In this document: piece after piece, positions 10,498 through 41,751 of the stretch
Layout: each line of letters starts with the position of its first letter
Position numbering within the stretch: position 1 is the first letter of the stretch
Program-made: the position numbers and the translations under genes
Assembly: GCF_000496735.2 (NCBI RefSeq)
Contig: NZ_AYLO01000021.1
Coordinates: forward strand, 1 to 41,751
Origin: Methyloglobulus morosus KoM1
GTDB lineage: Bacteria > Pseudomonadota > Gammaproteobacteria > Methylococcales > Methylomonadaceae
Reading direction: 5' to 3'
DNA: 41,751 nucleotides
The notes under the pieces: generated by a model
Database searches by the model: none
What the model saw: the letters and a program-made list of their open reading frames with translations, nothing else
What the model was told of the DNA's origin: nothing

Positions 10498-11891
<1,394 letters not shown>

Positions 11892-11892
<1 letters not shown>

Positions 11893-20872: not shown

Positions 20873-20904
20873 GAAGGTTTAGGCCGTGATTACAAATAAA
20901 TGGG

Positions 20905-21705: not shown

Positions 21706-21827
21706 TGGGAATATTGCTCGGTGGCTTTAATTCTGTAGCACACGATTGTGACCTTATGTTTATAATGAAATCAAATGCTTGCTTTTCTTCTTGAATCAAG
21801 TGGCTGATTCAGGGTTTCCTCAACTTA

Positions 21828-22523: not shown

Positions 22524-22611
22524 GCATTCTCCAAGAAGTTCATAAAATGATTTGGGCTTATGGGTTATAAGCAAGCGGCCTTAAAAGCCAAACAATAGAA
22601 GTGAAATTTAC

Positions 22612-23553
22612 TCATTCCAGCCTCAATACATCCACCGATACCGAAAGCGTATGTTGGCCGCCACCGAAAGCAATGCCTTTAAGCGGCGTAACATCCGAAT
22701 AATCGCGACCCCAAGCCAACGTGACATGTTGGTCAAGGGGGACTTTATTATTGGTTGGATCAAAATCCAGCCAGCCGGTATCGGGGACATAAACTGAAAA
22801 CCAGGCATGGGAAGCATCGACACCGACCAATCGTTGTATACCGGGTTCAGGCGTGGTTTCAACGTAACCGCTGATATACCTTGCCGGGATTCCGTAAGCG
22901 CGTAAACAGCCGATGGCCAGATGGGCAAAATCCTGGCAAACACCGCGGCGAAAGTTAAGGACGTCAGATAGGGGGGTCGCTATCGTGGTAAAGGTCGGAT
23001 CATAAGTAAAATCCTGGTAAATTCTTCCCATCAAATCATGCACCACATCCACTAAGGCACGATTGGGCTGGAATGAGGGTTGCGCGTAACCGGCAAGTTC
23101 GGGCGTAACGGTCACCATGAGCGAATCAAGCAAGTATTGCTTGGCATCCATCAATTCGGCCGATTGATCGCGATTTTGAAATTGGACCTGGCCTTGTTGG
23201 CTTTGAAATTGTCCTTGGCCCGGTAAAGATGTCTCTTGCAGCAGGTTACGCACCTGCTCCCATAACAACTGGTTAAATAAATCCAGGGTACTTTGTTTGG
23301 GGAATACCGTCACTTCACTGATTGTGGTGACAGTGAGTTGATTATGGGGTTGCTGGATAGCAAAATAAGTTACGCGATTGCCAAAAAAATCTAAACGCTC
23401 ATGAAAATCCATGGGTGTTGGATAAATTTCAAAGCGGCTATTGTCGCAGTTCTGCCGCCAAAAGTTTCGTGGCTGTAATCTGGCTTCATTCTGGCACAAA
23501 CCGACCGGCTGGCTATAGGAATACACGGTGGTATGGGTAATGCGATATTTCAC
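22612..23553 (-). CDS. Transglutaminase-like cysteine protein with Gln-rich insert
   Basis: A 313-residue protein of the bacterial transglutaminase family: an N-terminal beta domain (YRITHTTVYSYSQPV, NEARLQPR) then the core with Cys206 (in RGVCQDFAH), His249 (in DASHAWFSVY) and Asp265 (in LDFDPTNN). Residues 112-130 form a Gln-rich low-complexity insert (alternating GQ, FQ and SQ) between the two domains, which I would not expect in the family. Its start overlaps the end of the ATP-grasp/alpha-E gene by four bases (ATGA), so the two are translationally coupled and probably act together. No signal peptide. Confidence 0.92.
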   Translation of the reverse strand: MKYRITHTTVYSYSQPVGLCQNEARLQPRNFWRQNCDNSRFEIYPTPMDFHERLDFFGNRVTYFAIQQPHNQLTVTTISEVTVFPKQSTLDLFNQLLWEQVRNLLQETSLPGQGQFQSQQGQVQFQNRDQSAELMDAKQYLLDSLMVTVTPELAGYAQPSFQPNRALVDVVHDLMGRIYQDFTYDPTFTTIATPLSDVLNFRRGVCQDFAHLAIGCLRAYGIPARYISGYVETTPEPGIQRLVGVDASHAWFSVYVPDTGWLDFDPTNNKVPLDQHVTLAWGRDYSDVTPLKGIAFGGGQHTLSVSVDVLRLE

Positions 23554-26120: not shown

Positions 26121-26205
26121 GGGTTATGCCAACTTGTTTTTTTTCATGTTTTGCTTGTTAGGCTTTCTTTCTCATATTAGGCATATAAGAAACTGCAACT
26201 GGACA

Positions 26206-27507
26206 TCATCGTGGGATAGTATTTTTGTAGTGGCGTAATGGCTCCCCTACATAAATCTGGCGGGGACGGTAAATAGTCACCGTTTCGCCGTGTATCATCT
26301 CCCGCCAATGGGCTAACCAGCCTGGCATACGGCCCATGGCAAACAAAACGGTGAACATGTTCGTAGGGATACCGGCGGCACGGAGAATCAACCCAGAGTA
26401 AAAATCAACATTAGGGTAAAGTTTCCTGGAAATGAAATAGTCATCATTGAGGGCGATTTCTTCGAGCCGTCTGGCAATATCAAACAAGGGGTCATTCATG
26501 CCCGGTTTATTCAATAGTTTGTCGCAATGTTTTTTCAGCACCAAAGCCCGAGGATCGAAATTCTTATAAACACGATGGCCAAAACCCATCAACCGGCTTG
26601 ATGAATTCTTATCCTTAGCCTGATTAATAAATTCCGTGCCGTCACCGCCTTCGGCGTGGATTTGTTCCAGCATCGAGATTACCTCTTGGTTGGCGCCCCC
26701 ATGGCGCGGCCCCCATAACGCTGCGATACCCGAGGAAGCAACCGCATAAACATTCGCTAAGCTGGAACCTGCCGTTCGAACCGAAGAGGTGCTGCAATTT
26801 TGTTCATGGTCGGCATGCAGGATCAAAAACATATCAATTGCCCGCACAATATCATCATCCAGTTGATAATCACGGACGGGGGAAGCAAACATCATGGTAA
26901 GAAAGTTCCTTACATATTTCAATTTGTAAGAGGGATAAACAAGCGGTTCACCAATCGATTTTTTATAGGAAAATGCCGCAATAGTCCGTACTTGGGATAT
27001 CAGGTTGGCGACAATTTGTATTTCGGTGGCGGTATCGAGTTGATCCGGCACCGGATAAAAAGTGGACAAAGACGCAACCATGGTGGCAAGTATACCCATG
27101 GGATGAGATCCTCGAGGGAAACCATTAAAAAAATGGTGCATATCTTCATGAATGATGGACGATTCATTCAATTGCGTTGAAAACTGTGTTAATTGATCTA
27201 TATTAGGCAACTCACCGTGCAACAACAGGTAAGCAACGTCAGTGAACCGTGAATTTTCGGCCAGTTCTTCGATAGGATAACCGCGATAACGCAGGATGCC
27301 TTTTTCCCCGTCGATATAGGTAATGGCGCTCTCACAAGCGCCTGTATTGCCGTAGCCGTCGTCCAGGGTTATGTAGCCAGTTTGGCTGCGAAGCTTAGTA
27401 ATATCAATCGCTTTTTCGCCTTCAACACCTTGGTAAGTGGGTAATGAATAGGTCTGGCCATCCAGGGTCAACGTTGCCGGAGTCAGCCTTTTTAATTTAT
27501 CAGTCAT
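26206..27507 (-). CDS. gltA: Type II citrate synthase
   Basis: A 433-residue citrate synthase of the hexameric, NADH-sensitive gammaproteobacterial type, condensing oxaloacetate and acetyl-CoA. The LHADHEQNCSTSSVR segment carries the first catalytic His, RHGGANQEV the substrate loop, GFGHRVYKNFDPRA the second His, and AMGRMPGWLAHW the C-terminal block. All are intact and the length is standard. A GGAGAG site lies a few bases before the ATG. It is embedded, in the same direction, between the DUF2126 gene (91 bases away) and the ATP-grasp gene (85 bases away), which is not a usual neighbourhood for gltA. Confidence 0.97.
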   Translation of the reverse strand: MTDKLKRLTPATLTLDGQTYSLPTYQGVEGEKAIDITKLRSQTGYITLDDGYGNTGACESAITYIDGEKGILRYRGYPIEELAENSRFTDVAYLLLHGELPNIDQLTQFSTQLNESSIIHEDMHHFFNGFPRGSHPMGILATMVASLSTFYPVPDQLDTATEIQIVANLISQVRTIAAFSYKKSIGEPLVYPSYKLKYVRNFLTMMFASPVRDYQLDDDIVRAIDMFLILHADHEQNCSTSSVRTAGSSLANVYAVASSGIAALWGPRHGGANQEVISMLEQIHAEGGDGTEFINQAKDKNSSSRLMGFGHRVYKNFDPRALVLKKHCDKLLNKPGMNDPLFDIARRLEEIALNDDYFISRKLYPNVDFYSGLILRAAGIPTNMFTVLFAMGRMPGWLAHWREMIHGETVTIYRPRQIYVGEPLRHYKNTIPR

Positions 27508-27552
27508 TCTTGTGTCTCTCCAAATGTAATGGACGGCGATGCAGGTAAAAAT

Positions 27553-27581
27553 TCTATGGGTACTTTACAAAGCCATTGCAA
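27553..27581 (-). promoter_or_regulatory. Possible promoter of gltA
   Basis: Reading the minus strand, TTGCAA (27576-27581) and CATAGA (27553-27558) are separated by 17 bases, in the 91-base gap before gltA. The match is moderate; it would let gltA be expressed independently of the DUF2126 gene. Confidence 0.25.
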
Positions 27582-27598
27582 TAGATGTCTACCGAAAA

Positions 27599-30500
27599 TT
27601 AACGATTGCGATGACGTAAATCCAGGGTAAATGGATATTCTTCACTTAATTCTTCAGCAGGCGGTGACATTGCCCTAGGCGCTCCATCGGTGGCGCTAAA
27701 ACGGGCAAGCAGGGGCTTATCGGAAGCCGCCGCTGGACTCATAGCCAGCGGCGGACGAATGATAACGCCGGGCGTATGCCCGTAATCCCAAAAGCGCGTC
27801 ATGCGTCGAGTTTCTGCCGCATACGCATTGACTGGAAAATCGTCATAGCTACGACCGCCTGGATGGGCAACATAGTAGGTGCATCCCCCCACCGAATGAC
27901 CATTCCATGTGTCAATTACATCTAGCACCAGCGGCGTATGCGGTGCAATCGTTGGATGCAATGCCGAAGGCGGTTGCCATGCCCGATATCGGACACCGGC
28001 TATGAACTCGCCTTTCCGCCCCGTGCTGCGCATGGGTAACCGTCGGCCGTTGCAGGCAATGACATAGCGGCCTTCGGTAAATCCGCTTACCGAGACTTGT
28101 AAACGCTCGACCGACGAATCCACATAGCGGGCGGTGCCTGTGCTGCTGACTTCCTCGCCCAGTACGTGCCACGGCTCGATGGCAAAGCGCAATTCCATGT
28201 CGATACCGTCAACCATTGTATTGCCGTAACGGGGGAAGCGGAATTCGAAAAAGGGGTCTAACCATTCAAGTTCGAAACCATAACCCGCGCGTTGTAAATC
28301 TTTAACAACCTGTTTCATATCTTCGCGGACATAATGCGGCAGCATAAAACGGTCATGCAACTCCGTGCCCCAACGCACGAGGTCGTGCTTATAAGGCTCA
28401 CGCCAGAACCAGGCGATTAAGGATCTCAATAACACCATCTGTACCAACGACATGCGGGCATGGGGCGGCATTTCAAAAGCGCGGAGTTCGAGGATGCCTA
28501 AGCGTCCTGTAGAGCTGTCGGGCGAATAGAGCTTATCGATACAGAACTCGGAACGATGCGTGTTACCGGTTATATCGGTCAATAAATGCCGTAACAAACG
28601 GTCAACCAGCCAGGGTTCGGGCACTTCGCCTTCAGGCATTTGTTGAAAGGCAATTTCCAGTTCGTACAGCTTTTCATCTCGGCCTTCATCCACGCGTGGC
28701 GCTTGACTGGTGGGTCCGATAAACATGCCGGAAAATAAATACGATAAACCGGGGTGATGTTGCCAGTAGGTAATCAGGCTGCGCAATAAATCGGGACGGC
28801 GCAGCAAAGGGCTGTCGGTCGGTGTTTCCGCGCCCATGGTAATGTGATTGCCGCCGCCGGTGCCGGTATGCCGCCCGTCCTGCATAAATTTTTCAGTGCC
28901 CAGCCTGGATTGTCGCGCTTCTTCGTACAGGACGGTTGTTTTATCCACCAATTCCTGCCAGGATTTCGATGGATGGATATTGACTTCGATAACGCCGGGG
29001 TCTGGCGTAACCATTAACCGTTCGATACGGTAATCGCGAGGCGGCTCATACCCTTCAAGCACCACGGGCATCGCCAAGCTTTCGGCTGTCGCTTCAATGG
29101 CCGCAACCAATTCAAGATAATGTTCCAGCAAAGTCAACGGCGGCATGAAGATATACAGTCGACCTTCCCGAGCTTCAACGCAAAGGGCCGTATGGGGCAC
29201 TTCAACTTGTATTGAGGGTTCAGCATCACCCAAATCCTGTCCAATAAAATCAGGATGTTCAACTGCTTTAGCTTCGATATGGCTGTAACGCTTAGCTACC
29301 TCACCGTGATAATCTTTCAAATCCGGCAAGTCTTCAAATAAGCTTTGTGGCTCCTGAGGGTCGCGTTTATCGGGCGCAACCCAAGGCAAGCTAGCTAAGG
29401 GCAAACGCATACCCATAGGCGAATTGCCGGGTATCAAGAACATCGCGTCGCGCCGGAAAGTCCAAGGGCCACTTTTCCAGCATTGTTCGGGCCAATTCCA
29501 GGTAATCGGTACCGCAAAACCAATCGGTTGATCTAAGCCGGTATCCAATAATTGGGTTAAGGTCTTCCGCTCGATAGAATCTTTGAGATTGCTTTTTAAG
29601 GGGTTGATATTGTCCGGTAAACTGCCTTCCTGCCAGAGATAATAGAAACTGTCTTCAAATGCGGTGTTTATATATTTAGTATGGATGCCTAAACGCTTGC
29701 TAAGTTGGTGGGTAAATTTTTCCGCCTGTTTTACGGTAAGCCCATAATCCTGGTTAATATCGGCCAATAAGGCTGGTTGGCGCCAAATAGGCGAGCCGTC
29801 TTTACGCCAAAAAATGCCGTATTGCCAACGCGGTAACGGTTCGCCCGGATACCATTTGCCTTGGCCGTAATGCAGCATAGCGCCTTCGGTGAATACATCC
29901 CGTAAGCGAATGGTCAATTGTTGTGCGCGTTCGCGCTTGTTTGCACCATCAGCGTGCGTATTCCATTCCGCACCTTCCATGTCATCGATAGAAACAAAGG
30001 TAGGTTCGCCCCCCATCGTCAGCCGGACATCTTGTTCGAGCAATTGTCGGTCGACAGCCTGTCCCAAGGCATCAATGCGATACCATTGGTCGTCGCTATA
30101 AGGCTTGGTAACGCGCGGGTCTTCATGCAAGCGCTCAACGGTATTGCTAAATTCAAACGCCACTTCGCATTTATCGGTGCCGCCTGTTACCGGCGCTGCA
30201 CTGGCGGGGTCTGGCGTACATGCCAAAGGGATATGGCCTTCGCTCGCCAATAATCCCGAGGTGGGGTCAAGCCCTATCCAGCCGGCGCCCGGTATGTAGA
30301 CTTCAGTCCAGGCGTGTAAATCGGTAAAATCCTGTTCAGGGCCGGAAGGGCCGTCCAATGCTTTGATGTCGGCAGTCAATTGAACTAGGTAGCCGGATAC
30401 AAACCGGGCGGCAAGGCCGAGATGCCGCAGGATTTGCACCAAAAGCCAAGCCGAATCCCGGCATGAACCGCTGCGTTTTTTAAGCGTTTCTTCACAGCTT

Positions 30501-31000
30501 TGTATACCCACTTCCATGCGGATGTTGTAGTTGATCGCTTCAAAGACGGTACGATTAATTTCGACTAAGAAATCATTGATATTGCGTTTGCTGATGTCGA
30601 AATTTTTAACCCATTTTTTTAATAAATCCCCTTTTTCCGTGATTTCCAGGTAGGGCTGTAGTTCTTTAAGCGTCAATGAATCGTATTTAAACGGATAATT
30701 TTCCGCATACTCCTCAACAAAAAAATCAAAAGGATTAATCACCGTCATATCGGCGATCACTTCAACCTCGACGCTGAGTTTTCGGCACTTTTCGGGAAAA
30801 ACCACACGGGCAAGGATGTTGCCGAATGGGTCTTGCTGCCAATTGATAAAATGGTTTTTCGGCTCTATACGCAGGGCATAAGCTTTTATAGGCGTCCTGC
30901 TATGTACCGCCGGACGTAATCTGAATACATGCGGAGACAGCGATACCAGCCTGTCGAAGCTGTATATGGTTTTATGGCGAATGGCGACACGGATGGTCAT
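27599..31000 (-). CDS. Transglutaminase-DUF2126 (amidoligase-like) fusion protein
   Basis: A 1133-residue protein. Residues 1-290 form a transglutaminase module: an N-terminal beta domain, then Cys180 (in SGSCRDSAW), His229 (in DLHAWTEVY) and Asp245 (in GLDPTSGLLA). Residues from about 310 to the end are DUF2126, recognisable from MGGEPTFVSIDD, KWYPGEPLPRW, TGTGGGNHITMG and the RLGILELRAFEMPPH block. DUF2126 has been placed by comparative genomics among amidoligases of the glutamine-synthetase/GCS (carboxylate-amine ligase) fold; that is an assignment from the literature, and no activity is shown here. It is the first gene of the minus-strand cluster and diverges from the phosphorylase-kinase-like gene across 391 bases. 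Confidence 0.92.
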   Translation of the reverse strand: MTIRVAIRHKTIYSFDRLVSLSPHVFRLRPAVHSRTPIKAYALRIEPKNHFINWQQDPFGNILARVVFPEKCRKLSVEVEVIADMTVINPFDFFVEEYAENYPFKYDSLTLKELQPYLEITEKGDLLKKWVKNFDISKRNINDFLVEINRTVFEAINYNIRMEVGIQSCEETLKKRSGSCRDSAWLLVQILRHLGLAARFVSGYLVQLTADIKALDGPSGPEQDFTDLHAWTEVYIPGAGWIGLDPTSGLLASEGHIPLACTPDPASAAPVTGGTDKCEVAFEFSNTVERLHEDPRVTKPYSDDQWYRIDALGQAVDRQLLEQDVRLTMGGEPTFVSIDDMEGAEWNTHADGANKRERAQQLTIRLRDVFTEGAMLHYGQGKWYPGEPLPRWQYGIFWRKDGSPIWRQPALLADINQDYGLTVKQAEKFTHQLSKRLGIHTKYINTAFEDSFYYLWQEGSLPDNINPLKSNLKDSIERKTLTQLLDTGLDQPIGFAVPITWNWPEQCWKSGPWTFRRDAMFLIPGNSPMGMRLPLASLPWVAPDKRDPQEPQSLFEDLPDLKDYHGEVAKRYSHIEAKAVEHPDFIGQDLGDAEPSIQVEVPHTALCVEAREGRLYIFMPPLTLLEHYLELVAAIEATAESLAMPVVLEGYEPPRDYRIERLMVTPDPGVIEVNIHPSKSWQELVDKTTVLYEEARQSRLGTEKFMQDGRHTGTGGGNHITMGAETPTDSPLLRRPDLLRSLITYWQHHPGLSYLFSGMFIGPTSQAPRVDEGRDEKLYELEIAFQQMPEGEVPEPWLVDRLLRHLLTDITGNTHRSEFCIDKLYSPDSSTGRLGILELRAFEMPPHARMSLVQMVLLRSLIAWFWREPYKHDLVRWGTELHDRFMLPHYVREDMKQVVKDLQRAGYGFELEWLDPFFEFRFPRYGNTMVDGIDMELRFAIEPWHVLGEEVSSTGTARYVDSSVERLQVSVSGFTEGRYVIACNGRRLPMRSTGRKGEFIAGVRYRAWQPPSALHPTIAPHTPLVLDVIDTWNGHSVGGCTYYVAHPGGRSYDDFPVNAYAAETRRMTRFWDYGHTPGVIIRPPLAMSPAAASDKPLLARFSATDGAPRAMSPPAEELSEEYPFTLDLRHRNR

Positions 31001-31391: not shown

Positions 31392-34300
31392 ATGAAACTG
31401 AATGATCCGCATGACAGGCTCGAAGCTTACTATCAGCAAGTACAGGATATCATCTTAAGTAAACAGAACTGGATCAGCGGCTTGTTGCCAGCCAGTACGG
31501 CAGTCAATACGCATGGGAATTATACGGATGCTTGGGTAAGGGATAATGTTTATAGCATCCTGGCAGCTTGGGGCTTGGCGATTGCTTATCGCCATAGCGG
31601 AGAAAATCAAGGGCGTTCGTATTATCTTGAGCAAAGTGTCGTAAAGCTCATGCGCGGATTGTTGACCGCAATGATGCGGCAGGCCGCCAAAGTTGAAAAA
31701 TTCAAGCAATCCCAAAACCCGCACGATGCCTTGCATGCCAAATATGACACCCGAAACGGCGACATCGTGGTGGGCGACCACGAGTGGGGGCATCTTCAAC
31801 TGGACGCCACTTCCTTATTTTTGTTGATGACAGCGCAAATGACGGCATCGGGCCTACGGATTGTCTTTTCCATTGATGAAGTCAATTTTGTCCAAAACTT
31901 GGTGCACTACATTAGCCGGACTTACCGGACTCCCGACTACGGCATCTGGGAACGAGGCAACAAAATCAACCATGGCATCGCTGAGCTCAATGCCAGCTCC
32001 ATCGGCATGGCGAAAGCGGCACTGGAAGCCTTATCCGGCTTTAACTTATTTGGCAAAGAAGGAGGGCAGGCTTCAGTCATCCATGTCATCAGCGATGATG
32101 TTGCCCGAACCCGCATTACACTGGAATCGCTTTTGCCCAGGGAATCCATTTCTAAGGAAACAGATTCTGCGTTGCTTAGTATTACCGGATTCCCCGCATT
32201 TGCAGTGGATAACCCCGGGATTCGAAAAAATACCGAATCGGTCATCCGTGAAAAACTGGAAGGCAGGTATGGTTGTAAGCGATTTTTGTTGGATGGGCAC
32301 CAAACAGCCTTGGAGGACGGTTGTCGTCTGCATTATGACCCGCATGAACTCAAACAATTTAAGGATATTGAATGCGAGTGGCCGTTGTTTTTTGCTTATT
32401 TGCTCCTAAATAGCCTGTTCACGGGCAATGCAAAAGCCGCCAGGGATTATCGTAACAAATTAGAGGCGTTGCTGGTTGAGCACAACGGTCAACTGTTATT
32501 GCCGGAATTGTATACCGTCCCAAATGAAATGATTGCCGCAGAAAAGGCCAATCCGCACAGTCAACAACGGATGCCGAATGAAAATATCCCACTCGTTTGG
32601 GCGCAAAGCCTCTTTATATTGGGTAGCCTTATCCAGGAGGGTTTGCTGGGGTTGGATGACATCGATCCTTTGGGTCGATATAAACCGATTAATCAAAAAA
32701 GCCATAAGCTGCAAATAGCCTTGTTGGCACAAGACGACTCAGTTCAAGAGCAATTGCTGACTGAAGGGGTTGACACCCAACAGCTTGCCGAAATCGTCCC
32801 CATCCAAGTCAGGGAGGCGGTGGAATTGGCCGAAGCCTATACCCATGTGGGCAGGAATGACCGGATGAGCTTGACGGGCCGTCCGCTCAGGCAGTTAAGG
32901 TCACTGTCAACATCGCAATTGTACATATTGTCGGGCGCACGATTGGTGTTTTTACCGCAATGCCTGAGTCAGAAAGGGTTTTATCTGGCAATGGATAACC
33001 GCTTGTTGATTGAACGGCTACGTTCGGAATTTTCATATATCTATAAGCATTGGAACAAGGCCAATAATCCACTGTTTGTTATGTCGATTAGGCACAATAT
33101 GCTGACTAGCCAAAATAAAGGCATCCTGATCGACTTTATCAAAGAATTACACTCGGGTGAAATGAAAGGGATTCCTGTCCAATTAGGCTTGCTTACCGAG
33201 TTCATTGAAACGGCCAGCTTTGAAAAAATTGATTATTTGCATGATTTTCAATTCTCGGTCGCCTCCTGGGAAGAGCCCGAACGCCCGTTTTTGCAAATAT
33301 TGCCCTCCGATAGCAACCCGCCTACACCGATTGATACGATGTTATTAACGGAATGGGAATTGAGCGCCGATCACGTACTGATCCAGCAACTAAAAACCAA
33401 CCCAAACCTGTACGCCCAACTTGAAATATTGACCTTCTTGAACAATCGTCATGGCCTAGCCTATGATACCGGCTTAACCGCCATAGACGGCAGTATCGGC
33501 CATGTGTCCAGTTTGTTGGAAGAAATCTATGCGCGGGCGGGTGACCAACACACTTGGTTTATAGTCAGGCGATGTGCGAGCCTGTTGGGCAAGTACGATA
33601 TCAATCTCGAGCAAGCTGCCACTGACATACTGGTGCGTCAACATGCCTTATCCGTCGGCTTGGTTTATAGCGGCAAGTCTACATTGACCCGCCCCGTCGA
33701 TTCTTGGGAAATTCTCCACCTTATTAAAACGTATACCAGTAAGGACGGGAATGAACAGATCATGATTCAAGAGTTAATCCTCTATTTGGGCATGTTAATC
33801 AAGTCGAATCCGCAACTGTTCTCTGATATCCATACCATTAGGGTAGGGCAAATTCTCCAGTTGATTATTGCCAAACAAAAACGCGAATCAACTAAGGGCG
33901 ATTTGCACTACACCAATGACCAGGCATTTAATGAAATAATGAGCCTGTCGCCGTATGAACTATCGAAAAAAGTTCACCAAACCATCGTCGATTACAGCAA
34001 TAGCGAGATTAAAACGGGCTTTTTGGAAAAATTAAATTACGTCGGCGATTTTCTGGGCTTAAATAAGGCAATTTTTGCAAAAGCCGCGATGCCTACCGAT
34101 TTCGAAAGGTTCGAAAATTGGTATCAGTGGCGTGAGATGCGGGGCAGTATCGGCAAGGAAAACGATAGCTTTTTTGCCCATGTGTGGGATTTGCTGCACC
34201 GATGCAAGGGTGTGGTCATTGGCGATAGGCTCAACAGCAAACGGCGATTGGACAGCGAAATCGTATTGGCGCACATGACCGCTGGGGAACAAAGCTTCAA

Positions 34301-34652
34301 GCTGCACGTCAACCACTTGCTCAATAAAATCCAACTGCCTGTGCACCGTCAGCTAACCGTGGAAGTGCTGACGGTAATCGCAACGGTATTTCATGACAAT
34401 CCAACATTACGGATCGACGATACCTTGTCTACGGATTCGTTAATAGAACATGCCGCCAAAATAGCCAGCCAAAAATGGCATCGCAACGCACAAAAGAATG
34501 ACGAACAGGATGAAGAATCGGTATGGCACTATTTTTATCACTTGCCACCCCATAAAGTGGCCAATTGTTATGTGGAGGCTTTGACCCATTTGCTCGATAA
34601 TACGCCACAAGATTTTCAACAAACGGAGACGGCAGATGATCTTGGCAGGTGA
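31392..34652 (+). CDS. Phosphorylase kinase alpha/beta-subunit homologue (GH15-like), full length
   Basis: A 1086-residue protein resembling the eukaryotic phosphorylase kinase alpha/beta regulatory subunits from end to end. The N-terminal half is the GH15 glucoamylase-like domain: GLLPAST, DAWVRDNVYSILAAWGLA (residues 46-63), YLEQSVVKLMRGLL, GHLQLDATS and ELNASSIGMAKAALEAL. The likely GH15 acid/base residues are kept, Glu187 (in GIWERG) and Glu372 (in LLPELY). The C-terminal half also matches, with segments such as IQELILYLGMLI, MSLSPYELSKK and the region near 960-1010 that in the animal protein precedes the C-terminus. There is no CaaX box and no kinase (gamma) gene nearby. It overlaps the glucokinase gene by 17 bases. 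An automated label of glycosyl hydrolase 15 family would hide this resemblance. Confidence 0.88.
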   Translation: MKLNDPHDRLEAYYQQVQDIILSKQNWISGLLPASTAVNTHGNYTDAWVRDNVYSILAAWGLAIAYRHSGENQGRSYYLEQSVVKLMRGLLTAMMRQAAKVEKFKQSQNPHDALHAKYDTRNGDIVVGDHEWGHLQLDATSLFLLMTAQMTASGLRIVFSIDEVNFVQNLVHYISRTYRTPDYGIWERGNKINHGIAELNASSIGMAKAALEALSGFNLFGKEGGQASVIHVISDDVARTRITLESLLPRESISKETDSALLSITGFPAFAVDNPGIRKNTESVIREKLEGRYGCKRFLLDGHQTALEDGCRLHYDPHELKQFKDIECEWPLFFAYLLLNSLFTGNAKAARDYRNKLEALLVEHNGQLLLPELYTVPNEMIAAEKANPHSQQRMPNENIPLVWAQSLFILGSLIQEGLLGLDDIDPLGRYKPINQKSHKLQIALLAQDDSVQEQLLTEGVDTQQLAEIVPIQVREAVELAEAYTHVGRNDRMSLTGRPLRQLRSLSTSQLYILSGARLVFLPQCLSQKGFYLAMDNRLLIERLRSEFSYIYKHWNKANNPLFVMSIRHNMLTSQNKGILIDFIKELHSGEMKGIPVQLGLLTEFIETASFEKIDYLHDFQFSVASWEEPERPFLQILPSDSNPPTPIDTMLLTEWELSADHVLIQQLKTNPNLYAQLEILTFLNNRHGLAYDTGLTAIDGSIGHVSSLLEEIYARAGDQHTWFIVRRCASLLGKYDINLEQAATDILVRQHALSVGLVYSGKSTLTRPVDSWEILHLIKTYTSKDGNEQIMIQELILYLGMLIKSNPQLFSDIHTIRVGQILQLIIAKQKRESTKGDLHYTNDQAFNEIMSLSPYELSKKVHQTIVDYSNSEIKTGFLEKLNYVGDFLGLNKAIFAKAAMPTDFERFENWYQWREMRGSIGKENDSFFAHVWDLLHRCKGVVIGDRLNSKRRLDSEIVLAHMTAGEQSFKLHVNHLLNKIQLPVHRQLTVEVLTVIATVFHDNPTLRIDDTLSTDSLIEHAAKIASQKWHRNAQKNDEQDEESVWHYFYHLPPHKVANCYVEALTHLLDNTPQDFQQTETADDLGR

Positions 34653-35604
34653 CATTGGCGGCACTAAAACAGTACTGGCGTTAATCGACAGGTTGCCGGA
34701 CGGTTCAACCGCCTGGATTAAGGAGGAGGCTTATCCAAGCCAGGATTACCCAACATTTGATGCTATTTTGGAGCAGTTCCTGCCCCGTGGCATTAACCTC
34801 ATATCGGCCTGTTTCGGTATTGCCGGCCCTGTCGTAAACCAGCATTGTCAAATGACTAACTTGTCATGGTCTTTGGACGGCACAACATTAAAAACCCAAT
34901 TGGGTGTCGAAAAGGTAAAGCTGTTGAATGACCTGGAAGCCATGGCGATTGGGATGTTGCATTTGCCGGAATACGACTTGGTCGAGCTAAACCCCAATGC
35001 CATTGCCCAATCTGGAAATATCGCAGTCATTGCTGCCGGGACAGGCTTGGGCGAAGCCCTTTTGTATTGGGACGGTGAAAAACATCACCCAATGGCAACC
35101 GAAGGGGGGCACTGTGATTTTGCCCCGCAAACGGTTCAACAGGATAGGCTGCTGACCTACCTGAGGACGTGCTATCCCGAGCATGTCAGTTATGAGCGCA
35201 TCCTGTCTGGCATAGGTTTTAGCCATCTTTATGATTTTCTCTGTGCGGATGGTTTTGCGCCTGCTTGCCCTGACGTGCCCGACATTGGGAGCGGGATCGA
35301 TAGGAACGCAGTCATTTCCCAGTTAGGCGTTGCGGGGAAAGATCCTGTCTGCGCCGAAGCAGTCAGGCTGTTCGTGGAAATCTACGGTGCGGAAACGGGC
35401 AATTTGGCGTTAAAGGCATTTGCCTTAGGTGGCATTTATATCGGCGGCGGAATTGCCCCCAAAATCCTGCCCATCATTAAAGACGGAGGATTCTTGCAGT
35501 CATTCAACGCCAAAGGCCGGTATTTGCCTTTGCTCGATCAGGTTTCTGTCAAAATATCATTAAACGAGCGCACGCCATTAATGGGAGCCGTTAATTATTA
35601 TTAG
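34636..35604 (+). CDS. glk: Glucokinase
   Basis: A 322-residue glucokinase of the bacterial Glk family, phosphorylating glucose to glucose-6-phosphate with ATP. The phosphate-binding motif DIGGTKTVLALID is at the N-terminus, and the central segments LLNDLEAMAIG, IAAGTGLGEALLYW and EGGHCDFAP bind glucose and ATP. The family's ERILSGIGFSHLYDF block and a GGIYIGGGIAPKIL block follow. It starts inside the end of the preceding phosphorylase-kinase-like gene (17-base overlap), with a GGAG site 7 nt before ATG. The two are therefore translated from one message, and the neighbour probably acts in the same glucose or glycogen pathway. Confidence 0.94.
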   Translation: MILAGDIGGTKTVLALIDRLPDGSTAWIKEEAYPSQDYPTFDAILEQFLPRGINLISACFGIAGPVVNQHCQMTNLSWSLDGTTLKTQLGVEKVKLLNDLEAMAIGMLHLPEYDLVELNPNAIAQSGNIAVIAAGTGLGEALLYWDGEKHHPMATEGGHCDFAPQTVQQDRLLTYLRTCYPEHVSYERILSGIGFSHLYDFLCADGFAPACPDVPDIGSGIDRNAVISQLGVAGKDPVCAEAVRLFVEIYGAETGNLALKAFALGGIYIGGGIAPKILPIIKDGGFLQSFNAKGRYLPLLDQVSVKISLNERTPLMGAVNYY

Positions 35605-35677
35605 ATATTCCACTAAGTCGATTGCGTTCATGATTCGATAAGTCCTGGGCGAGGAATCAACACAAACCGCCCGTTCC

Positions 35678-35715
35678 GGGGAAGTGTGCACATAGCTGCA
35701 AAAAGCGCCACGTAA
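35678..35715. repeat. Probable left terminal inverted repeat of a Tn3-family element
   Basis: A 38-bp stretch beginning GGGG and ending CACGTAA, with a run of A before the CCACG. This length and layout are the pattern of Tn3-family terminal repeats, for example that of Tn4430. It sits just beyond the 3' end of the transposase gene. The adjacent GTTCC (35673-35677) would be the target duplication. I found no matching copy at the other side in this window. Confidence 0.5.
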
Positions 35716-35769
35716 TGGGGTTAATTAACCAAAAGAACGGTTTGTCCTGCGACCCCTCCTAAACCCTTG

Positions 35770-38700
35770 CTACAAGCGGCTTACAGCCGAAATATCGATT
35801 TTAAAACCGGCAATAAAATTCTTGATAAGCTCTTGAATATTAAGCACATCCCCTCGGTTATAAAATTCATACTTACCGATGAAGTTGATATGCTGCCAGG
35901 CCACTGGCGAAAAACGCAGTATTTGTTTCGCCATGTCAGTGGCAACCGATTGATAATGCTGATAAAGCGCTGACAGCAGCGTCGCATTGTAAAAGATCAC
36001 CGCGTTGGCAATGAGCCGGATGGAGTCGGCATTGATGTCGAGTTCGATTTCGGTCTTGCCGCTCAGCATCCTGCCGCCGCTGACTTTGGCAATGGTGGAG
36101 CTTAACTGGTGGTAGGATTCGCCACGGTTCAACGAGCCTTGCACCACTTCGCGGATTTCCTTGCTGTCGATATAATCCAGCAAATAATCAGTCATGATGA
36201 TCTCATCGAAGGCAATTAGTGCCTTTAGCGCCGGGCTGGTCTTCTTATAGGAAGACAGCTTGCTGACGATGGTGCTTTGAGTTGTTTTCTTAAGGGCCAA
36301 GGAAGCCAATATCCTCAATACATTGTCCCACTCCTTGACGATAAGTGCCTTATTGACCTTCCTGCTGGGCTTGATGATGTGGTGCTTATAGTTGTCTGGC
36401 TCATCAAAACACACCAGGTTATTGTCCGACTTGTCCTGCAACTGGGTGAAGCGCGGCATGAAACGGTATCCAAACAGATACATCAAGGCGAAGTTGACAC
36501 GGTTGATGCTGTGCATGTCGCCGGATATTGCCGTGATTTCAACATCGGAGGTGTTGCTCTCCACAATATCCAACAAGAAGTGGCTTTCGTGCTGGTTCGC
36601 GCCAATGACTTTCAGGCACAACGGCAAGTGGTTGGCGTTGATTGCCAACAAGACCACGCCTTTCAACATACCAAAATACTTCTTTGCATGGCGTGATTTG
36701 ATCGTGTGGTATTTGGTGACCAATTTTTGGCCGTCAACGCTGGCGTGGACACCGTAATCGGCCAAGTTGTACTCGGCAAAGATCGGCAGTTTGGCCGTAT
36801 GGTTCATGATCAAGTCATTCGCGGCATAGAGGGTTTGGTAGCGGACATGGTTTTTGCCCACCCGTTCCAGGTCGCTTTCCTTAATGTCGCTGATCTCTTT
36901 CATCCGTTTGGCTTCAATGCCGGTGGCATTGGCGATGACACAGGCATGGATAACTTCAGGGTCTGGGCTTAATTTCGCGTATTTGGGCTGGAGGTGCGTA
37001 AAGGCCTTCATAAATCCGGTAGCCAGTGCCGTGAATTTCAGGATGTCTCCAATACTGGAGACATTCAGCTTTTCATAAAATGGGTTGTTCATCCCGTCAT
37101 CCAGGCGGACATAGGGCAGCGTCCATTTCAGCAGTTCGCCCTGCTTGTTGTAATGGGTTTTCAGGCTGGGGTTCTCACCGCTGCGGATAGCGTGGTTCAC
37201 TTGCCCATACTTGATTTTCATGTTGGCTTCGAACTGGTTTAACATGTCTTCTACATCCATCGACAGCAACGGCATATTCAGTTCTTTTAAAATCTTATCC
37301 TTGTTCTGCGTCCATTCGCCAATGTCGATTAGGTCATCCTCCAGGGAACAATACCAGTGGCTGTCCTTGACGAACACCGCCGTGTTGGCCATGCCCTGCT
37401 TAAGTTGGTGGTACACCATGCTTTCATAGCGGTCGCCATCCACCTTTTTGACCGACGGTTGCCCATTGATGGACACTTTGTAGGTCAGGAACTTTTTCAA
37501 CGCGGGTGGGCAAAAATCCATCGGCACGTCTTGATAGCGATAATCCCGGAACGGCTGCCCACCCTCCAGGTGCCACCTTAAAAATGCAACCGCCCGGGTC
37601 AAGTTGTCCTTGGTACAGGAAAATTCCAATACCTTGAACAGTGGGCGGATATTTTTCTTTACCGTCAGTGCAATCTCCCCGTAGTATTGCCAGCGGTAAA
37701 AGTCCCGGTCCAGGTTGGGCTTGTCAAAATCCTTGAGGAATTGTTTGTATCCCTCAAGCGGCACCACTTCAAAGGCCTTGGCCCGGACTTGGTCATCGGG
37801 AATCCGGCTGTCTATATTAACCGCCATCACCTGGAACGCCTGTTTCCGCAATCGCGTGTCCTCGGTTTCCATCAACTCAATTTTGGAGCGTTGATAGTCG
37901 TCCGCGCCGTCGGAATACTTGGCCATCTTCTGGATCAAACTAGACACCAGATGGTCATTGATTTTGAGGAAGCGGTGATGGGCATAACAGAGCAAATACA
38001 GGCGCACCAGGTTTTTGTCGGCAAAGCGACGGAGCTTCTGGATGCTGTAAAACTCCGCCAGGTTCGCATAGTAGATGATGTTCTGTTTGGAAATGCCCAG
38101 TTTCGGCATCAACAGTTGGGACTCTCGGTAAATGCCGATGACCAGTTGTTGTTTGGCGACACTTTTCTTGATCTCGGTGATGCTGAAATCCTTCTGGTCT
38201 TTTTTGAGCAAAGTGAGGTTATAAAACAACTCGTCGTTGGCCAACAGCTTGTCCAATTGCCCACGAAGCCCTTTGTCGGTATCGGTATAGAGCTTGGTGA
38301 CCAGCCGCTTACGCTCCTCCCGAAGTGCGATGGATACTATGTCCTGTAAGCTTGAGTATGCAGGCCTGAGCACATTTTGCAATTGGCAGTAGGACAGCAG
38401 TTCTTCCAGAACGAACCGGGACAGCACATGGCGTTTGGCAAGCGCTTTCGCTTCCTTGAGCAATTGTCTTTGAAATCCGGCATCGGCGTCCCTTAGCCCA
38501 AACTGGTTCATGACGGCACAACGGTTTTGGTAGTGGTGGTTTTTCGACACCTGCTTTTTTAGGAAGGGTTCCCCCGGGAAATACTGTTGCAGGATGAACT
38601 CAACTTCACCCTTCACTTTTTGGAAGCTGAACAGGAAGAAGGTGCCGATGGCCCGGTAATAACCCAGTTGGAGGATATAATCGACTTTGCGGGCGGTGTC

Positions 38701-38835
38701 GTTTCCCAGGGTATCAAGGACAGCCCTGTCTTCATTGTCGAGGCTGAACAGGAAAGACCGCTCTTCATCATCCAGCGGGGGGATCGCATACAGCGCGTCG
38801 ATTTCTTCCTGGGTCAATATGGTCAGGCGTGCCAT
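35770..38835 (-). CDS. tnpA: Tn3-family transposase TnpA
   Basis: A 1021-residue Tn3-family DDE transposase, which forms cointegrates by replicative transposition. The length is standard for the family. The N-terminal DUF4158-like domain starts ARLTILTQEEIDALY. The catalytic core is present: the first Asp is in HASVDGQKLVTKYHT, the second in ISGDMHSINRVNF, and the Glu in GSLNRGESYHQLSS. The reading frame is intact, so it may be active. A ribosome binding site (AAGGA) precedes the ATG by about 11 nt. The base composition is slightly richer in GC than that of the surrounding chromosomal genes. Confidence 0.95.
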   Translation of the reverse strand: MARLTILTQEEIDALYAIPPLDDEERSFLFSLDNEDRAVLDTLGNDTARKVDYILQLGYYRAIGTFFLFSFQKVKGEVEFILQQYFPGEPFLKKQVSKNHHYQNRCAVMNQFGLRDADAGFQRQLLKEAKALAKRHVLSRFVLEELLSYCQLQNVLRPAYSSLQDIVSIALREERKRLVTKLYTDTDKGLRGQLDKLLANDELFYNLTLLKKDQKDFSITEIKKSVAKQQLVIGIYRESQLLMPKLGISKQNIIYYANLAEFYSIQKLRRFADKNLVRLYLLCYAHHRFLKINDHLVSSLIQKMAKYSDGADDYQRSKIELMETEDTRLRKQAFQVMAVNIDSRIPDDQVRAKAFEVVPLEGYKQFLKDFDKPNLDRDFYRWQYYGEIALTVKKNIRPLFKVLEFSCTKDNLTRAVAFLRWHLEGGQPFRDYRYQDVPMDFCPPALKKFLTYKVSINGQPSVKKVDGDRYESMVYHQLKQGMANTAVFVKDSHWYCSLEDDLIDIGEWTQNKDKILKELNMPLLSMDVEDMLNQFEANMKIKYGQVNHAIRSGENPSLKTHYNKQGELLKWTLPYVRLDDGMNNPFYEKLNVSSIGDILKFTALATGFMKAFTHLQPKYAKLSPDPEVIHACVIANATGIEAKRMKEISDIKESDLERVGKNHVRYQTLYAANDLIMNHTAKLPIFAEYNLADYGVHASVDGQKLVTKYHTIKSRHAKKYFGMLKGVVLLAINANHLPLCLKVIGANQHESHFLLDIVESNTSDVEITAISGDMHSINRVNFALMYLFGYRFMPRFTQLQDKSDNNLVCFDEPDNYKHHIIKPSRKVNKALIVKEWDNVLRILASLALKKTTQSTIVSKLSSYKKTSPALKALIAFDEIIMTDYLLDYIDSKEIREVVQGSLNRGESYHQLSSTIAKVSGGRMLSGKTEIELDINADSIRLIANAVIFYNATLLSALYQHYQSVATDMAKQILRFSPVAWQHINFIGKYEFYNRGDVLNIQELIKNFIAGFKIDISAVSRL

Positions 38836-39108
38836 GCGGTCTTATATCCTTGGTGATCGTTGTTGTTATGGCACGCTAACTCTACTGCCCCAAAATCCAT
38901 TTTAGGCTATTTCGATACACTTACACCTTTGATATAGGCTTGCTTCCCCAGAATGCCCTTTAAATCCTATGGGACTTTGGTGCCGTTAGTTTAAACTCAC
39001 CCTCGTTTAGTAGTTTGGTGCTGTCCTGTCCTTTGTGGGGTTGGGTCATGGCATGGTTCGTTTTTCTGTCATAGACAGTCACTCTGGATCGGAATCTGAT
39101 AAATCTAA

Positions 39109-39122
39109 CCTATCAATAGGCC
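39109..39122. repeat. Resolvase-site-like repeat, copy 1
   Basis: CCTATCAATAGGCC, containing the CCTAT/ATAGG inverted arms around CA. An identical copy lies 49 bases further right. Direct copies of a dyad upstream of a tnpR gene are what a Tn3 res site looks like, so binding by the encoded resolvase is likely. Confidence 0.5.
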
Positions 39123-39157
39123 CTGCTCCAGTGAGAGGTGGGCAAACCCCATAAAAG

Positions 39158-39171
39158 CCTATCAATAGGCC
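39158..39171. repeat. Resolvase-site-like repeat, copy 2
   Basis: Second exact copy of CCTATCAATAGGCC, 58 bases before the tnpR start codon. It could also act as an operator through which the resolvase represses tnpR and tnpA. Confidence 0.5.
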
Positions 39172-39229
39172 GCTTTTTGATTTATGATCGACACCCTATC
39201 ACAACCCCTAAAATTCCAGTGAGGGAAAT

Positions 39230-39793
39230 ATGATCATCGGCTACGCACGGACTTCGACGGTAGACCAATTGGCCGGCCTTGAGGCGCAACTTCGGGAACT
39301 GGAAGCCGCCCAGTGCCAAAAAATCTTCCGGGAGCAGGTGTCCTCCGTTGCCGTCCGTGCCCAACTTGAAGCGGCCCTGGAATTTGCAAGGGAGGGCGAC
39401 GTGCTGGTCGCCACCAAGCTCGACCGCCTGGCACGGTCGGTGGCGGACTTGATGTCAACCGTCAAGGCCTTGGAACAGAAAGCGGTGGGCTTGCGTATCC
39501 TTAACTTGGGGATGGACACCCAGACCCCGACCGGCAAGCTCATGTTGACCGTCCTGGGCGGCATCGCCCAGTTCGAGCGGGAAATGATGCTGGAGCGGCA
39601 GCGCGAAGGGGTCGCCAAGGCCAAGGCCGCCGGCAAATACAAGGGGCGCAAGCCGATCCCGGACGACCTGCGCCAAGAAGTTATTGCCCTCGCCGCCAGC
39701 GGCCTGGCGAAAACCGGCATCGCCAAGCGACTCAATATCGGCGAGGCCAGCGTCTACCGCATCCTGGCGGCACACCCAAAGGCGGGGGCTTAA
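39230..39793 (+). CDS. tnpR: Serine resolvase TnpR
   Basis: A 187-residue serine recombinase of the resolvase/invertase family, the normal size for a Tn3 resolvase. The active-site Ser9 lies in YARTSTVDQ, the conserved Arg in KLDRLARS, and further core motifs in GIAQFEREMMLERQREG. A C-terminal helix-turn-helix (KTGIAKRLNIGEASVYRIL) binds DNA. It resolves cointegrates made by TnpA at the res region upstream. GAGGG precedes the ATG by five bases. The gene is clearly more GC-rich than the chromosomal genes in the window, consistent with arrival by transfer. Confidence 0.95.
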   Translation: MIIGYARTSTVDQLAGLEAQLRELEAAQCQKIFREQVSSVAVRAQLEAALEFAREGDVLVATKLDRLARSVADLMSTVKALEQKAVGLRILNLGMDTQTPTGKLMLTVLGGIAQFEREMMLERQREGVAKAKAAGKYKGRKPIPDDLRQEVIALAASGLAKTGIAKRLNIGEASVYRILAAHPKAGA

Positions 39794-40162
39794 AAAGAGT
39801 TCGCCGCCATAAGGGGGCAAGCCAAACGTCACTTGACGGCTGTCCACAACAGCCCAGAAACGTCGACAGCTTCACAAATTTGGATAAAATTGTCCATTTT
39901 TGAATCCGCAAAGGCCAAATTATGGACATTCAGAAAGAAAGCCACTAAGATGCGCGGAATATTTTTGGCGTTAGGGATTGGTGGCTAAGTGGTCGAATAT
40001 GCAACCCCTTTGTTCTAGGGCATATAAGCCTATCGGAAAATGCCTTAAACGTCAGTCCACATGGGTGTTCTTAATAGGGTGGTTGGTAGCTGTGTCCCGT
40101 ATAAACTGGCGCATTCACGAAGGTCACTTTTTTTCCAAACAGCAAACAGCGGGTGTCAATAG
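39794..40162. other. Intergenic region between tnpR and the RHS gene
   Basis: I see no supported gene in these 369 bases. Short open frames exist but have no ribosome binding site or family features. The right end of the Tn3 element may lie here, but no sequence matching the proposed left repeat was found. Confidence 0.5.
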
Positions 40163-41751
40163 ATGGCGGATCGGGGGATAACAGCAAGAGTGGTAGGGTA
40201 CGCACCGCGTAACACCAAAGTCCAACACGTACGCGGTGCGTATCCTACGTGGCTTACGGCCTTACTGCTATTTAGCTTTTTTACCACAACCAATGCCAGC
40301 GCAGATTATTATTGGTATATCTTCGGCCAGTCCAGTATAGGGCAGTTTTCAAGCTATGCACAAGCCTGTGAACGTACAAGGAAATTAACTGAAGATCAAG
40401 CTAATATATTGTTTAACAGTTCAAATTCCCGCCATATAAAAACTTACTTGCACAGTTGTCAACGTGTAAGACAAAGAGACCCAAATGGTGTGCCAAACGA
40501 ATATTTTTGTGGTGGACCCTTCACAACTTGGTTCGTTTTTTCTAGCAATGCATATTTTACTAACGGCTTTTGTGAAGCTGGCGCTACTGCGGTACGCGTC
40601 CCAGACACCGCCTCTGGTACATGCTCCGACCCCAGCAAACCGCTAAACCCCGACACCGGCAGTTGCGAACCGCCGCCCAAAACCCCACCGGGATGCCCTT
40701 CAACGCCTAAACCGGTAAACATTGTTACTGGTAACAAGCATTTCGACATCGCTGATTTTTCAACCCAAGGCACATCGCCCTTGCATTTCAGCCGTCACTA
40801 CAACAGCTTGGCAAGCTACCAATACTTGACCACGTTCGGCACGGCGGGAATCACCCGTAACCCAATAGGTTTCCAATGGTCGCACAATTATTACAAAGGC
40901 CTGACTGTCCTATCGGCCACCCAAGTCAAGTTGACCCTCAGCAGCGGCCAAGCCTTTAACTACAACTTGGTGTCAGGTGCTTGGCAACCCGATGCCGATG
41001 TCACTTACCGCCTACAAGAAAACTTGAGCGCAGGTGTGCGTACCGGCTGGACGGTGTCTACCCCTGATAATACTGTTGAAACCTTCAGCCCCATTGGCGA
41101 CTTGCTGACCATCACACAACCAAACGGTCTCACCCAAACCCTAACCTACAGCACCAATACTACGCCATCAGCTATTGCAGCATTTCCTGGCTTCCTCATC
41201 CAAGTCACCGACAACTTTGGGCGAAGCTTGAATTTTACTTACTCTGGTGGCCAATTGGCCACGATGGCCGACCCCGTCGGCAACATCACCAGCTACAGTT
41301 ATGACCCCTCCGGCAACCTCAAGACCGTCAACTACCCTGACAACACGCCTACAGTCCTGACCGACAACCCCAAGGTCACCTATGTTTATGGCAACGATGC
41401 CGGGGAAGCCGCCAACGTTTCCGCCACCCCCAATGCCGGGGTCAGCTATGCCAATGCCCTAACTGGTGTAATCGACGAAAACGGCATTCGCACCATGACT
41501 TACCAGTACGACGCCAACGGCAGGGCTTTCAACGAGTTCTCCAGTGGAAATATTGAGAAATACAGCCTGAACTACGCCCCCGACGGCAGCAGCACCGCCG
41601 TCACCGACCCGTTAGGCTCAATCAGGACCACCCACTTCACCACCGTCCTGGGCGTGGTGAAATCTACCGGCACCGACCAGCCCGGCGGCTCCGGCTGTAG
41701 TGCGGCCTCGTCTGCCATGACCTACGATGCCAACGGCAACGTCGCCTCAAG
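40163..41751 (+). CDS. Secreted RHS/YD-repeat protein, 3' end outside window
   Basis: An open frame of 529 codons running off the window. A hydrophobic signal-peptide core (WLTALLLFSFF, then NASA as a likely cleavage site) begins around residue 29. A Cys-rich region follows to about residue 180, ending in a proline-rich stretch (CEPPPKTPPGCP). An RHS-type entry domain comes next (PVNIVTGNKHFDIADF, LHFSRHYNS) and then YD-type repeats such as YSYDPSGNLKTV, YQYDANGRA and MTYDANGNV. RHS proteins often end in a variable toxin tip; that part is not visible here. The start is uncertain: ATG 40163 or GTG 40190 are the only reasonable codons. The first 30 residues are encoded by an inverted repeat and may not be original. 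Confidence 0.82.
   Translation, partial: MADRGITARVVGYAPRNTKVQHVRGAYPTWLTALLLFSFFTTTNASADYYWYIFGQSSIGQFSSYAQACERTRKLTEDQANILFNSSNSRHIKTYLHSCQRVRQRDPNGVPNEYFCGGPFTTWFVFSSNAYFTNGFCEAGATAVRVPDTASGTCSDPSKPLNPDTGSCEPPPKTPPGCPSTPKPVNIVTGNKHFDIADFSTQGTSPLHFSRHYNSLASYQYLTTFGTAGITRNPIGFQWSHNYYKGLTVLSATQVKLTLSSGQAFNYNLVSGAWQPDADVTYRLQENLSAGVRTGWTVSTPDNTVETFSPIGDLLTITQPNGLTQTLTYSTNTTPSAIAAFPGFLIQVTDNFGRSLNFTYSGGQLATMADPVGNITSYSYDPSGNLKTVNYPDNTPTVLTDNPKVTYVYGNDAGEAANVSATPNAGVSYANALTGVIDENGIRTMTYQYDANGRAFNEFSSGNIEKYSLNYAPDGSSTAVTDPLGSIRTTHFTTVLGVVKSTGTDQPGGSGCSAASSAMTYDANGNVAS
40193..40248. repeat. REP/MITE-like inverted repeat overlapping the RHS gene start
   Basis: Two 18-base arms (40193-40210 and 40231-40248) that pair with a single mismatch, separated by 20 bases. 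The arms begin GTAGGG and end CTAC, with an inner CGCACCGCG core, the style of short palindromic repeats dispersed between genes in many genomes. Here it lies within the frame of the RHS gene, just upstream of its signal peptide. Confidence 0.65.

Follow-up and report, generated by a model that had tools for sequence, protein, structure and literature searches.

A full-length bacterial homologue of the phosphorylase kinase alpha/beta subunits encoded beside a glucokinase in methanotrophs

The gene pair

Contig NZ_AYLO01000021.1 of Methyloglobulus morosus KoM1 (assembly GCF_000496735.2), whose 41,751 nucleotides are called the window here, carries a gene for a protein related to the alpha and beta subunits of animal phosphorylase kinase (PhK), with a glucokinase gene, glk, directly behind it (Table 1). 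The host is a methanotroph of the order Methylococcales, and the contig belongs to a 4.14 Mb assembly that is 99.97% complete. The PhK-like protein is a full-length homologue of PhK alpha/beta. It represents a true bacterial arm of that family, common in Methylococcales and scattered elsewhere.

No signal peptide is evident by eye in the 1086-residue protein (MKLNDPHDRLEAYYQQVQ). The glk product is a glucokinase by both family models applied, with 327 bits for PF02685 (hmmscan, over the cut-off) and 255 bits for the equivalog TIGR00749 (NCBIfam, cut-off 225). The overlap of the two genes, given as 17 bases in an initial annotation of this DNA, is exact by coordinates, and translational coupling through it is likely. 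Among 19 measured junctions including the window, but not locus L016, a 17-base overlap occurs in five, a 4-base overlap in six, and a gap of 3-67 bases in eight; the gap at L046 is about 6 bases too large, as the tblastn match there starts at residue 3.

Table 1. Features of the PhK-like gene and glk in the window
Feature	Position	Strand	Remark
PhK alpha/beta-like gene	31392..34652	+	ATG start, 1086 aa
GH15-like (alpha/alpha)6-barrel domain, residues ~8-430	31413..32681	+	Equivalent of PhK D1
Tyr44 codon	31521..31523	+	Invariant in 40/40 bacterial homologues
Glu187 codon, predicted general acid	31950..31952	+	Aligns with human alpha Glu185
Glu372 codon, predicted general base	32505..32507	+	Human alpha Glu371; Lys in human beta
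KPBB_C, PhK C-terminal region, residues 838-1072	33903..34607	+	Pfam
GGAGA, Shine-Dalgarno-like	34625..34629	+	Within the 3' end of the PhK-like gene, 6 bases upstream of glk
Overlap of PhK-like gene and glk, 17 bases	34636..34652	+	From ORF coordinates
glk, glucokinase PF02685	34636..35604	+	322 aa; in the PhK-linked glucokinase clade

Family assignment

The protein has the domain order of the PhK alpha/beta family, that is, a GH15-like D1 followed by D2-D5 with a C-terminal KPBB_C domain. Pfam models (hmmscan) place GH15 (PF00723, 276 bits) on residues 9-819 and KPBB_C (PF19292, 283 bits) on residues 838-1072, both over cut-off. A phmmer search of PDB chains retrieved human PhK-alpha at E 8.2e-217 (query stretches 8-614, 662-864, and 906-1018) and human PhK-beta at E 4.2e-177 (8-824 and 909-1059). 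The view that both halves resemble PhK alpha/beta, put forward from the sequence in the initial annotation, thus holds; its weak point would have been a C-terminal half without any PhK match, and that half is the one recognized by KPBB_C.

A generic GH15 glucoamylase with an unrelated tail was considered and ruled out. No GH15 enzyme appeared among the PDB matches at E<=1, where the sole non-PhK match was a chance one. A profile of residues 1-433 built from 20 homologues scored PhK-alpha at 622 bits and PhK-beta at 490 bits; at E<=10 it retrieved no glucoamylase, and its one other match was due to chance. Even the first half thus resembles PhK and not a generic GH15 enzyme, and the tail is recognized by KPBB_C. 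The protein is also the only GH15 match in the window genome. Its identity to human alpha is 49.8% over 601 aligned N-terminal columns, above the 42% between human alpha and human beta. For 40 bacterial proteins, the first ~600 residues are 42-52% identical to human alpha and 35.5-43.1% to human beta.

One trait of the animal subunits is missing. The CaaX farnesylation motif, which helps human alpha to bind the gamma subunit (PMC10978961), is absent from all 40 bacterial rows, and the protein described here ends in ...TADDLGR. This absence bars the name PhK subunit without affecting membership in the sequence family. By its sequence, the protein is accordingly filed as a homologue of PhK subunits and not as a PhK subunit of the alpha4 beta4 gamma4 delta4 holoenzyme, which is defined by its partners, the gamma kinase and calmodulin, and by its control of phosphorylase through phosphorylation.

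Predicted structure

An AlphaFold2 model built with 28 homologues has a mean predicted local distance difference test score (pLDDT) of 80 and a predicted template modelling score of 0.76; in two loops, 184-197 and 294-305, pLDDT is <50. Foldseek ranked the PhK alpha and beta chains first, followed by the glycosidase 7c25/5z3a. Structural alignment (VIA-align), a check that the initial annotation had called for, superposed the model on animal PhK-alpha (8jfk_A) with a Z score of 44.1 over 779 residues at 3.6 A. Residues 907-1072 superpose separately on human alpha 1051-1217 (Z 17.4), a stretch that lies within the C-terminal region of alpha (D5), reported to contact the gamma kinase in animals (PMC10978961).

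The GH15 (alpha/alpha)6-barrel is evident from the PF00723 match and from the alignment with known enzymes, namely an isomaltose glucohydrolase of Kribbella (5z3a, Z 26.4; PMC12446779) and the glucoamylases of Thermoanaerobacterium (1lf6, Z 24.3) and Aspergillus (1gai, Z 19.9). These enzymes share the barrel fold with the bacterial protein at 14-16% identity and without a profile match, and they lack its ~650 extra residues of the PhK D2-D5 type.

Such comparisons bear on whether the protein might be a trehalase, or another GH15 alpha-glucosidase not acting on glycogen, that passes glucose from trehalose to Glk. GH15 does include alpha,alpha-trehalases (PMC12446779), trehalose rises in methanotroph glk mutants (PMC8062543), and the only NCBIfam match of the protein is to the archaeal trehalase TreH1. 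That match is negligible at 18 bits against a cut-off of 820. Moreover, among the families in the structure list the nearest enzymes are the isomaltose glucohydrolase and the glucoamylase, and the sugar genes adjoining the PhK-like gene are glucokinase and glycogen genes. We regard a trehalase as unlikely.

Active site and conservation

Ten predicted active-site positions (Tyr44, Trp48, Arg50, Asp51, Trp186, Glu187, Arg297, Asp301, Glu372, and Trp403) are invariant in all 40 bacterial sequences. We take these residues to correspond to GH15 subsite -1; for the eight besides the two Glu, the equivalence is by motif (Tyr-x3-Trp-x-Arg-Asp, Trp-Glu, Arg-x3-Asp, and Trp) and not by residue-level structural alignment. 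By the same motif equivalence, the set is presumably common to the bacterial protein and to 5z3a, 1lf6, and 1gai. Glu187 and Glu372, expected from the outset to be the GH15 acid and base, are indeed kept. They align with Glu185 and Glu371 of human alpha, which the cryo-EM paper identifies as catalytic (PMC10978961).

Most invariant positions lie in the GH15 part, at 116 of 421 compared to 5/180, 3/230, 1/68, and 9/167 in the later parts (1 to 5%), in an alignment in which 21 of the 40 rows come from one order. All ten site positions fall among the 116 (hypergeometric P 2e-6, a figure that ignores the usual conservation of such residue types). This pattern looks enzyme-like. It favours hydrolysis in the alternative "hydrolyses or senses" left by the initial annotation, the activity itself being predicted from sequence.

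The human subunits depart from the pattern to different degrees. Human muscle PhK alpha (8jfk/8z5r) is like the bacterial protein in its full-length match and in having both catalytic Glu, and it keeps 101 of the 116 invariants. It differs in its CaaX tail, its length (1223 vs 1086 residues), and the HGNY (Tyr44) loop; nor does the bacterial gene have a kinase gene as a neighbour here. The 15 positions lost in alpha include Thr36, His41, Gly42, Tyr44, His303, Gln304, Asn396, Asn398, Leu401, and Ala404, ten residues that sit near catalytic positions in the sequence. Alpha has Gln in the Tyr44 column and a loop before Trp48 that is six residues shorter, and a Tyr two residues further off might replace Tyr44. 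Loss of the HGNY loop function in human alpha is therefore suggested, not proved. With maltose, isomaltose, or glycogen as substrate, human PhK was reported to show no detectable activity (PMC10978961). The missing loop is a possible reason for this silence, and the bacterial protein need not be silent. Human muscle PhK beta has the same architecture, keeps 80 of the 116 invariants, and has lost the equivalents of Trp48, Arg50, and Glu372. As beta is described as the central scaffold of PhK (PMC10978961), a scaffold can do without an intact site.

The main rival to glucose release is a regulatory role. The GH15 domain would be a sugar sensor, and D2-D5 would bind Glk or the Glg enzymes and tune them to the glycogen state without a kinase. 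In favour of this, the PhK architecture is complete down to the C-terminal part, which in animals touches gamma. Human PhK, not detectably hydrolytic, is reported to bind the glucoamylase inhibitor acarbose with a rise in kinase activity (PMC10978961), and the GH15 domain of animal PhK may likewise be a sugar sensor. In addition, the neighbouring genes alternate between Glk and GlgB plus a GlgX-like protein, as expected for a regulator of a pathway rather than of a single step. Against this stand the invariant positions, which lie mostly in the GH15 domain and not in D2-D5, the ten active-site residues kept throughout, and the lack of a third gene conserved beside the pair in most of the 28 loci compared. 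On this evidence we hold a regulator or scaffold to be less probable than an enzyme, yet the most probable of the alternatives.

Distribution and genomic neighbourhood

KPBB_C was surveyed in 301 Methylococcales genomes, a class sample of 369, a phylum sample of 398, and 14 control genomes. It was found in 144 genomes of the order (143 over the cut-off; the match of G669 is below it), in 14 of the class sample, two of which (G000 and G017) are Methylococcales, and in eight of the phylum sample, one being the window's own genome. Outside Methylococcales, 12 + 7 = 19 genomes are therefore PhK-positive, and Synechococcus elongatus is the only positive control genome. Bacterial members of the family are thus already caught by the Pfam model and are not restricted to methanotrophs. 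An origin as phage or plasmid cargo was considered and rejected, since a search of 72,556 plasmid and 50,697 phage records gave no match.

We counted glk as adjacent when it followed the PhK-like gene on its strand at a distance of no more than 300 bases. By this measure, glk lies directly downstream in 126 of the 144 positive Methylococcales genomes, with domain ends 12-114 bases apart, so the neighbour is not peculiar to the window genome; a pairing unique to it would have weakened the proposed link. Eleven weak glk-family matches (E 3e-8 to 2e-4) were left out; by eye, none is within 300 bases of a PhK match. Among the 18 genomes of the order without an adjacent glk, at least G566 and G662 have the PhK match at a contig edge, five (G513, G566, G648, G662, and G683) have no glk match, and in G539 glk follows 685 bases onward. 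The count of 126 is probably a low estimate for these reasons.

Outside the order, glk is directly downstream in five of the 19 positive genomes, which come from three families, and divergently adjacent in G841. Glycogen genes take this place elsewhere: the PhK-like gene is followed by glgB and a glgX-like gene in G202 and G218, preceded by glgB, a glgX-like gene, and malQ in G345, and divergent from glgB and a glgX-like gene in G983 (the GlgX-like name is inferred from CBM48 and GH13 domains). Altogether, 10 of the 19 have a glucose or glycogen gene as a neighbour. For the other nine, a Pfam scan of the neighbours (in eight of the nine) showed unrelated genes, and eight reference proteins compared by tblastn with the stretch covered around the gene revealed neither glk nor a glycogen gene.

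Neighbours change around the pair while the pair itself stays. In 28 loci (PhK ORFs of L065 and L073 taken from tblastn), glk is the only neighbour family present in most, at 20/28 including L050 (19 by the ORF table), and the next commonest family reaches 7; a larger conserved operon was ruled out on this basis. The methanotroph locus L016 has the order pyk (pyruvate kinase)-zwf (glucose-6-phosphate dehydrogenase)-PhK-like gene-glk-glgB-glgA (glycogen synthase).

The neighbourhood also allows a fourth possibility to be judged, in which the PhK-like protein forms a complex with an unlinked bacterial Ser/Thr kinase that phosphorylates glycogen phosphorylase as in animals. PF00069 kinases do occur in all 16 PhK-positive genomes tested, and in G017 the divergent neighbour encodes a 1099-aa Ser/Thr kinase-AAA-TPR protein (L040:11514-14813). 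This adjacency is unique among the 16 genomes, and such kinases are common in bacteria (11 of the 14 control genomes positive, 8 over the cut-off). The CaaX tail that aids gamma binding in human alpha is missing throughout. No kinase had been seen near the gene in the initial annotation, and the PF00069 search agrees: the window contig has no match, and the six matches of this genome all lie on other contigs. A kinase complex is thus highly improbable.

Several other genes of the window were noted. Behind glk lie a Tn3-family transposase gene (35770-38835, minus strand; PF01526) and a resolvase gene (39230-39793, plus strand; PF00239); no inverted repeats of at least 25 bases were found at 35400-41751, so the ends of the element were not located. 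The minus-strand region 20117-31000 encodes citrate synthase, a DUF2126 amidoligase with a transglutaminase domain (1133 aa), a circularly permuted ATP-grasp protein fused to Alpha-E, two more transglutaminase-core proteins, and two proteins without a Pfam match, as a divergent cluster. Relatives of this cluster occur near the PhK-like gene in several methanotroph loci (clusters c2, c3, c9, c13, and c14), with c2 in 7/28 loci, window included. Further off are a gene for a Tle1-like phospholipase resembling type VI secretion effectors (948-2441, minus strand; PF09994, 241 bits) and genes like those of Na+-translocating NADH:quinone reductase (10534-14019 and 17282-18328, plus strand), comprising nqrA, an NQR2/RnfD-type gene, and an FMN-binding gene, with apbE further on.

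Phylogeny of the glucokinases

A glucokinase tree was built from 45 sequences, 25 linked to a PhK-like gene and 20 unlinked; L067 (G818) was left out, as the contig ends within its glk. The 20 PhK-linked glucokinases of Methylococcales form one clade (100/99), next to which the linked glucokinases of families f145 (95/85) and f243 (94/84) join. Two unlinked sequences fall within the clade. In G011, the PhK-like gene is on a different contig from this glk. G007 (L095), of the same genus as the window, has no PhK match, including within 14 kb around glk, and has probably lost its PhK-like partner.

A second, unlinked type of glucokinase in Methylococcales makes up a separate clade of 14 sequences (98/95). 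A linked copy occurs together with one of the second type in seven genomes (G014, G016, G022, G498, G525, G534, and G567); among these linked copies, the tree contains those of G014, G016, and G022 only. The adjacent glk of G841 is of a remote type, so linkage there arose separately.

As the tree indicates, the PhK-like gene is coupled to a glucokinase of its own type and shares its history with a distinct clade. Chance adjacency was rejected in view of the spread and this shared history, bearing in mind that related genomes are not independent. The tie to glucokinase first noticed at this locus is strongly supported by the adjacency survey and the glucokinase tree together.

Proposed function

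The favoured reading, to which we give a probability of roughly one half, is that the protein frees glucose from oligosaccharides derived from glycogen and so supplies Glk. It would be a cytosolic member of the GH15 glucohydrolases, enzymes that cleave an alpha-glucoside with inversion, and would have the full set of PhK alpha/beta domains. Short alpha-glucans left by glycogen breakdown through GlgP, debranching enzyme, and MalQ would be its substrate, from whose ends glucose would be cut. Co-translated Glk would then convert glucose to glucose 6-phosphate, which would return to central metabolism or to glycogen. We infer that the protein is catalytically active, that it acts on maltodextrin, isomaltose, or another alpha-glucoside, that it touches Glk physically, and that the ~650 residues following the GH15 domain have a regulatory role. 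Among PhK-positive genomes tested, MalQ is present in 16/16, GH31 alpha-glucosidases in 0/16, and GlgP in 18/18; GlgP is also present in 15/19 PhK-negative genomes.

The partner is the kind of enzyme, an ATP-dependent methanotroph glucokinase, that was proposed to salvage glycogen-derived glucose (PMC6406325, PMC8062543). Work on Methylotuvimicrobium alcaliphilum describes free glucose as mainly derived from glycogen and salvaged mainly by Glk (PMC8062543). Loss of glk was reported to lower glycogen about 50-fold, and free glucose rose on the double loss of gdh and glk (PMC8062543). If this strain has the gene, a PhK-like glucohydrolase encoded upstream of glk would add a further source of free glucose.

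A number of points weigh against a glucose-releasing enzyme. Human PhK shows no detectable activity with both Glu present in alpha, so these two residues are not enough, and the catalytic loop 184-197 is among the parts of the model with pLDDT <50. The 650 further residues would be superfluous in a plain glucohydrolase. For the release of glucose, the authors of the M. alcaliphilum study name MalQ, which is capable of it, and also mention an amy gene (PMC8062543); sucrose is a further source of free glucose (PMC6406325). The pairing with glk has its exceptions. Outside Methylococcales, 14 of the 19 positive genomes do not have glk directly downstream; the PhK-positive Methylococcales genomes G479, G564, and G578 have unlinked glk and, as far as found, the second glucokinase type only; and G494, with a PhK-like gene and remote glucokinases only, counts against strict pairing. 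Finally, no assay of a bacterial family member was found in the literature searched.

Descent and relation to eukaryotic PhK

An unrooted tree of 42 rows, with the N-terminal 609 and 608 residues of two human sequences for the eukaryotes and no cyanobacterial row, separates human alpha and beta from all 40 bacterial rows by a 97/96 branch. Human beta, human alpha, L027, and L073 were flagged by the tree program as long branches, with a warning that long branches meet. Since the human pair stands apart from all bacteria and the identities are 42-52% compared to 42%, a recent transfer from animals is unlikely; the data leave room for an old transfer between bacteria and eukaryotes, in either direction. 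The initial annotation suggested that the bacterial protein may represent the ancestral state of the eukaryotic regulator; an unrooted tree with two eukaryotic sequences speaks neither for nor against this.

A bolder reading, less likely than not, takes the bacterial protein as the catalytically competent form of the family, with hydrolase and dedicated glucokinase as a two-gene module for glycogen recycling. The animal subunits would descend from such an enzyme, having lost the HGNY loop (alpha) or catalytic residues (beta) and retained the fold for sugar sensing and for holding the gamma kinase. If true, this enzyme ancestry would account for the presence of both catalytic Glu in a human alpha without detectable activity.

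Significance

A literature search on PhK, GH15, and methanotroph glucose metabolism, in which subscription journals were mostly not covered, turned up no report of a bacterial PhK alpha/beta homologue encoded next to a glucokinase, and we do not claim that none is in print. A word search of the main texts of PMC6406325 and PMC8062543 gave no occurrence of "phosphorylase kinase" or "glycoside hydrolase", and none of "glucoamylase" or "GH15" in the main text of PMC8062543.

According to the 2024 cryo-EM study, the role of the glucoamylase-like domains of PhK still needs investigation, above all in alpha, with its apparently complete site and no detectable activity (PMC10978961). The bacterial relative makes this question directly testable, as it is about 50% identical to alpha in that domain and is a single gene product in place of four. 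It also has the loop that human alpha is missing, and it is encoded in an operon with an enzyme, glucokinase, that can be measured.

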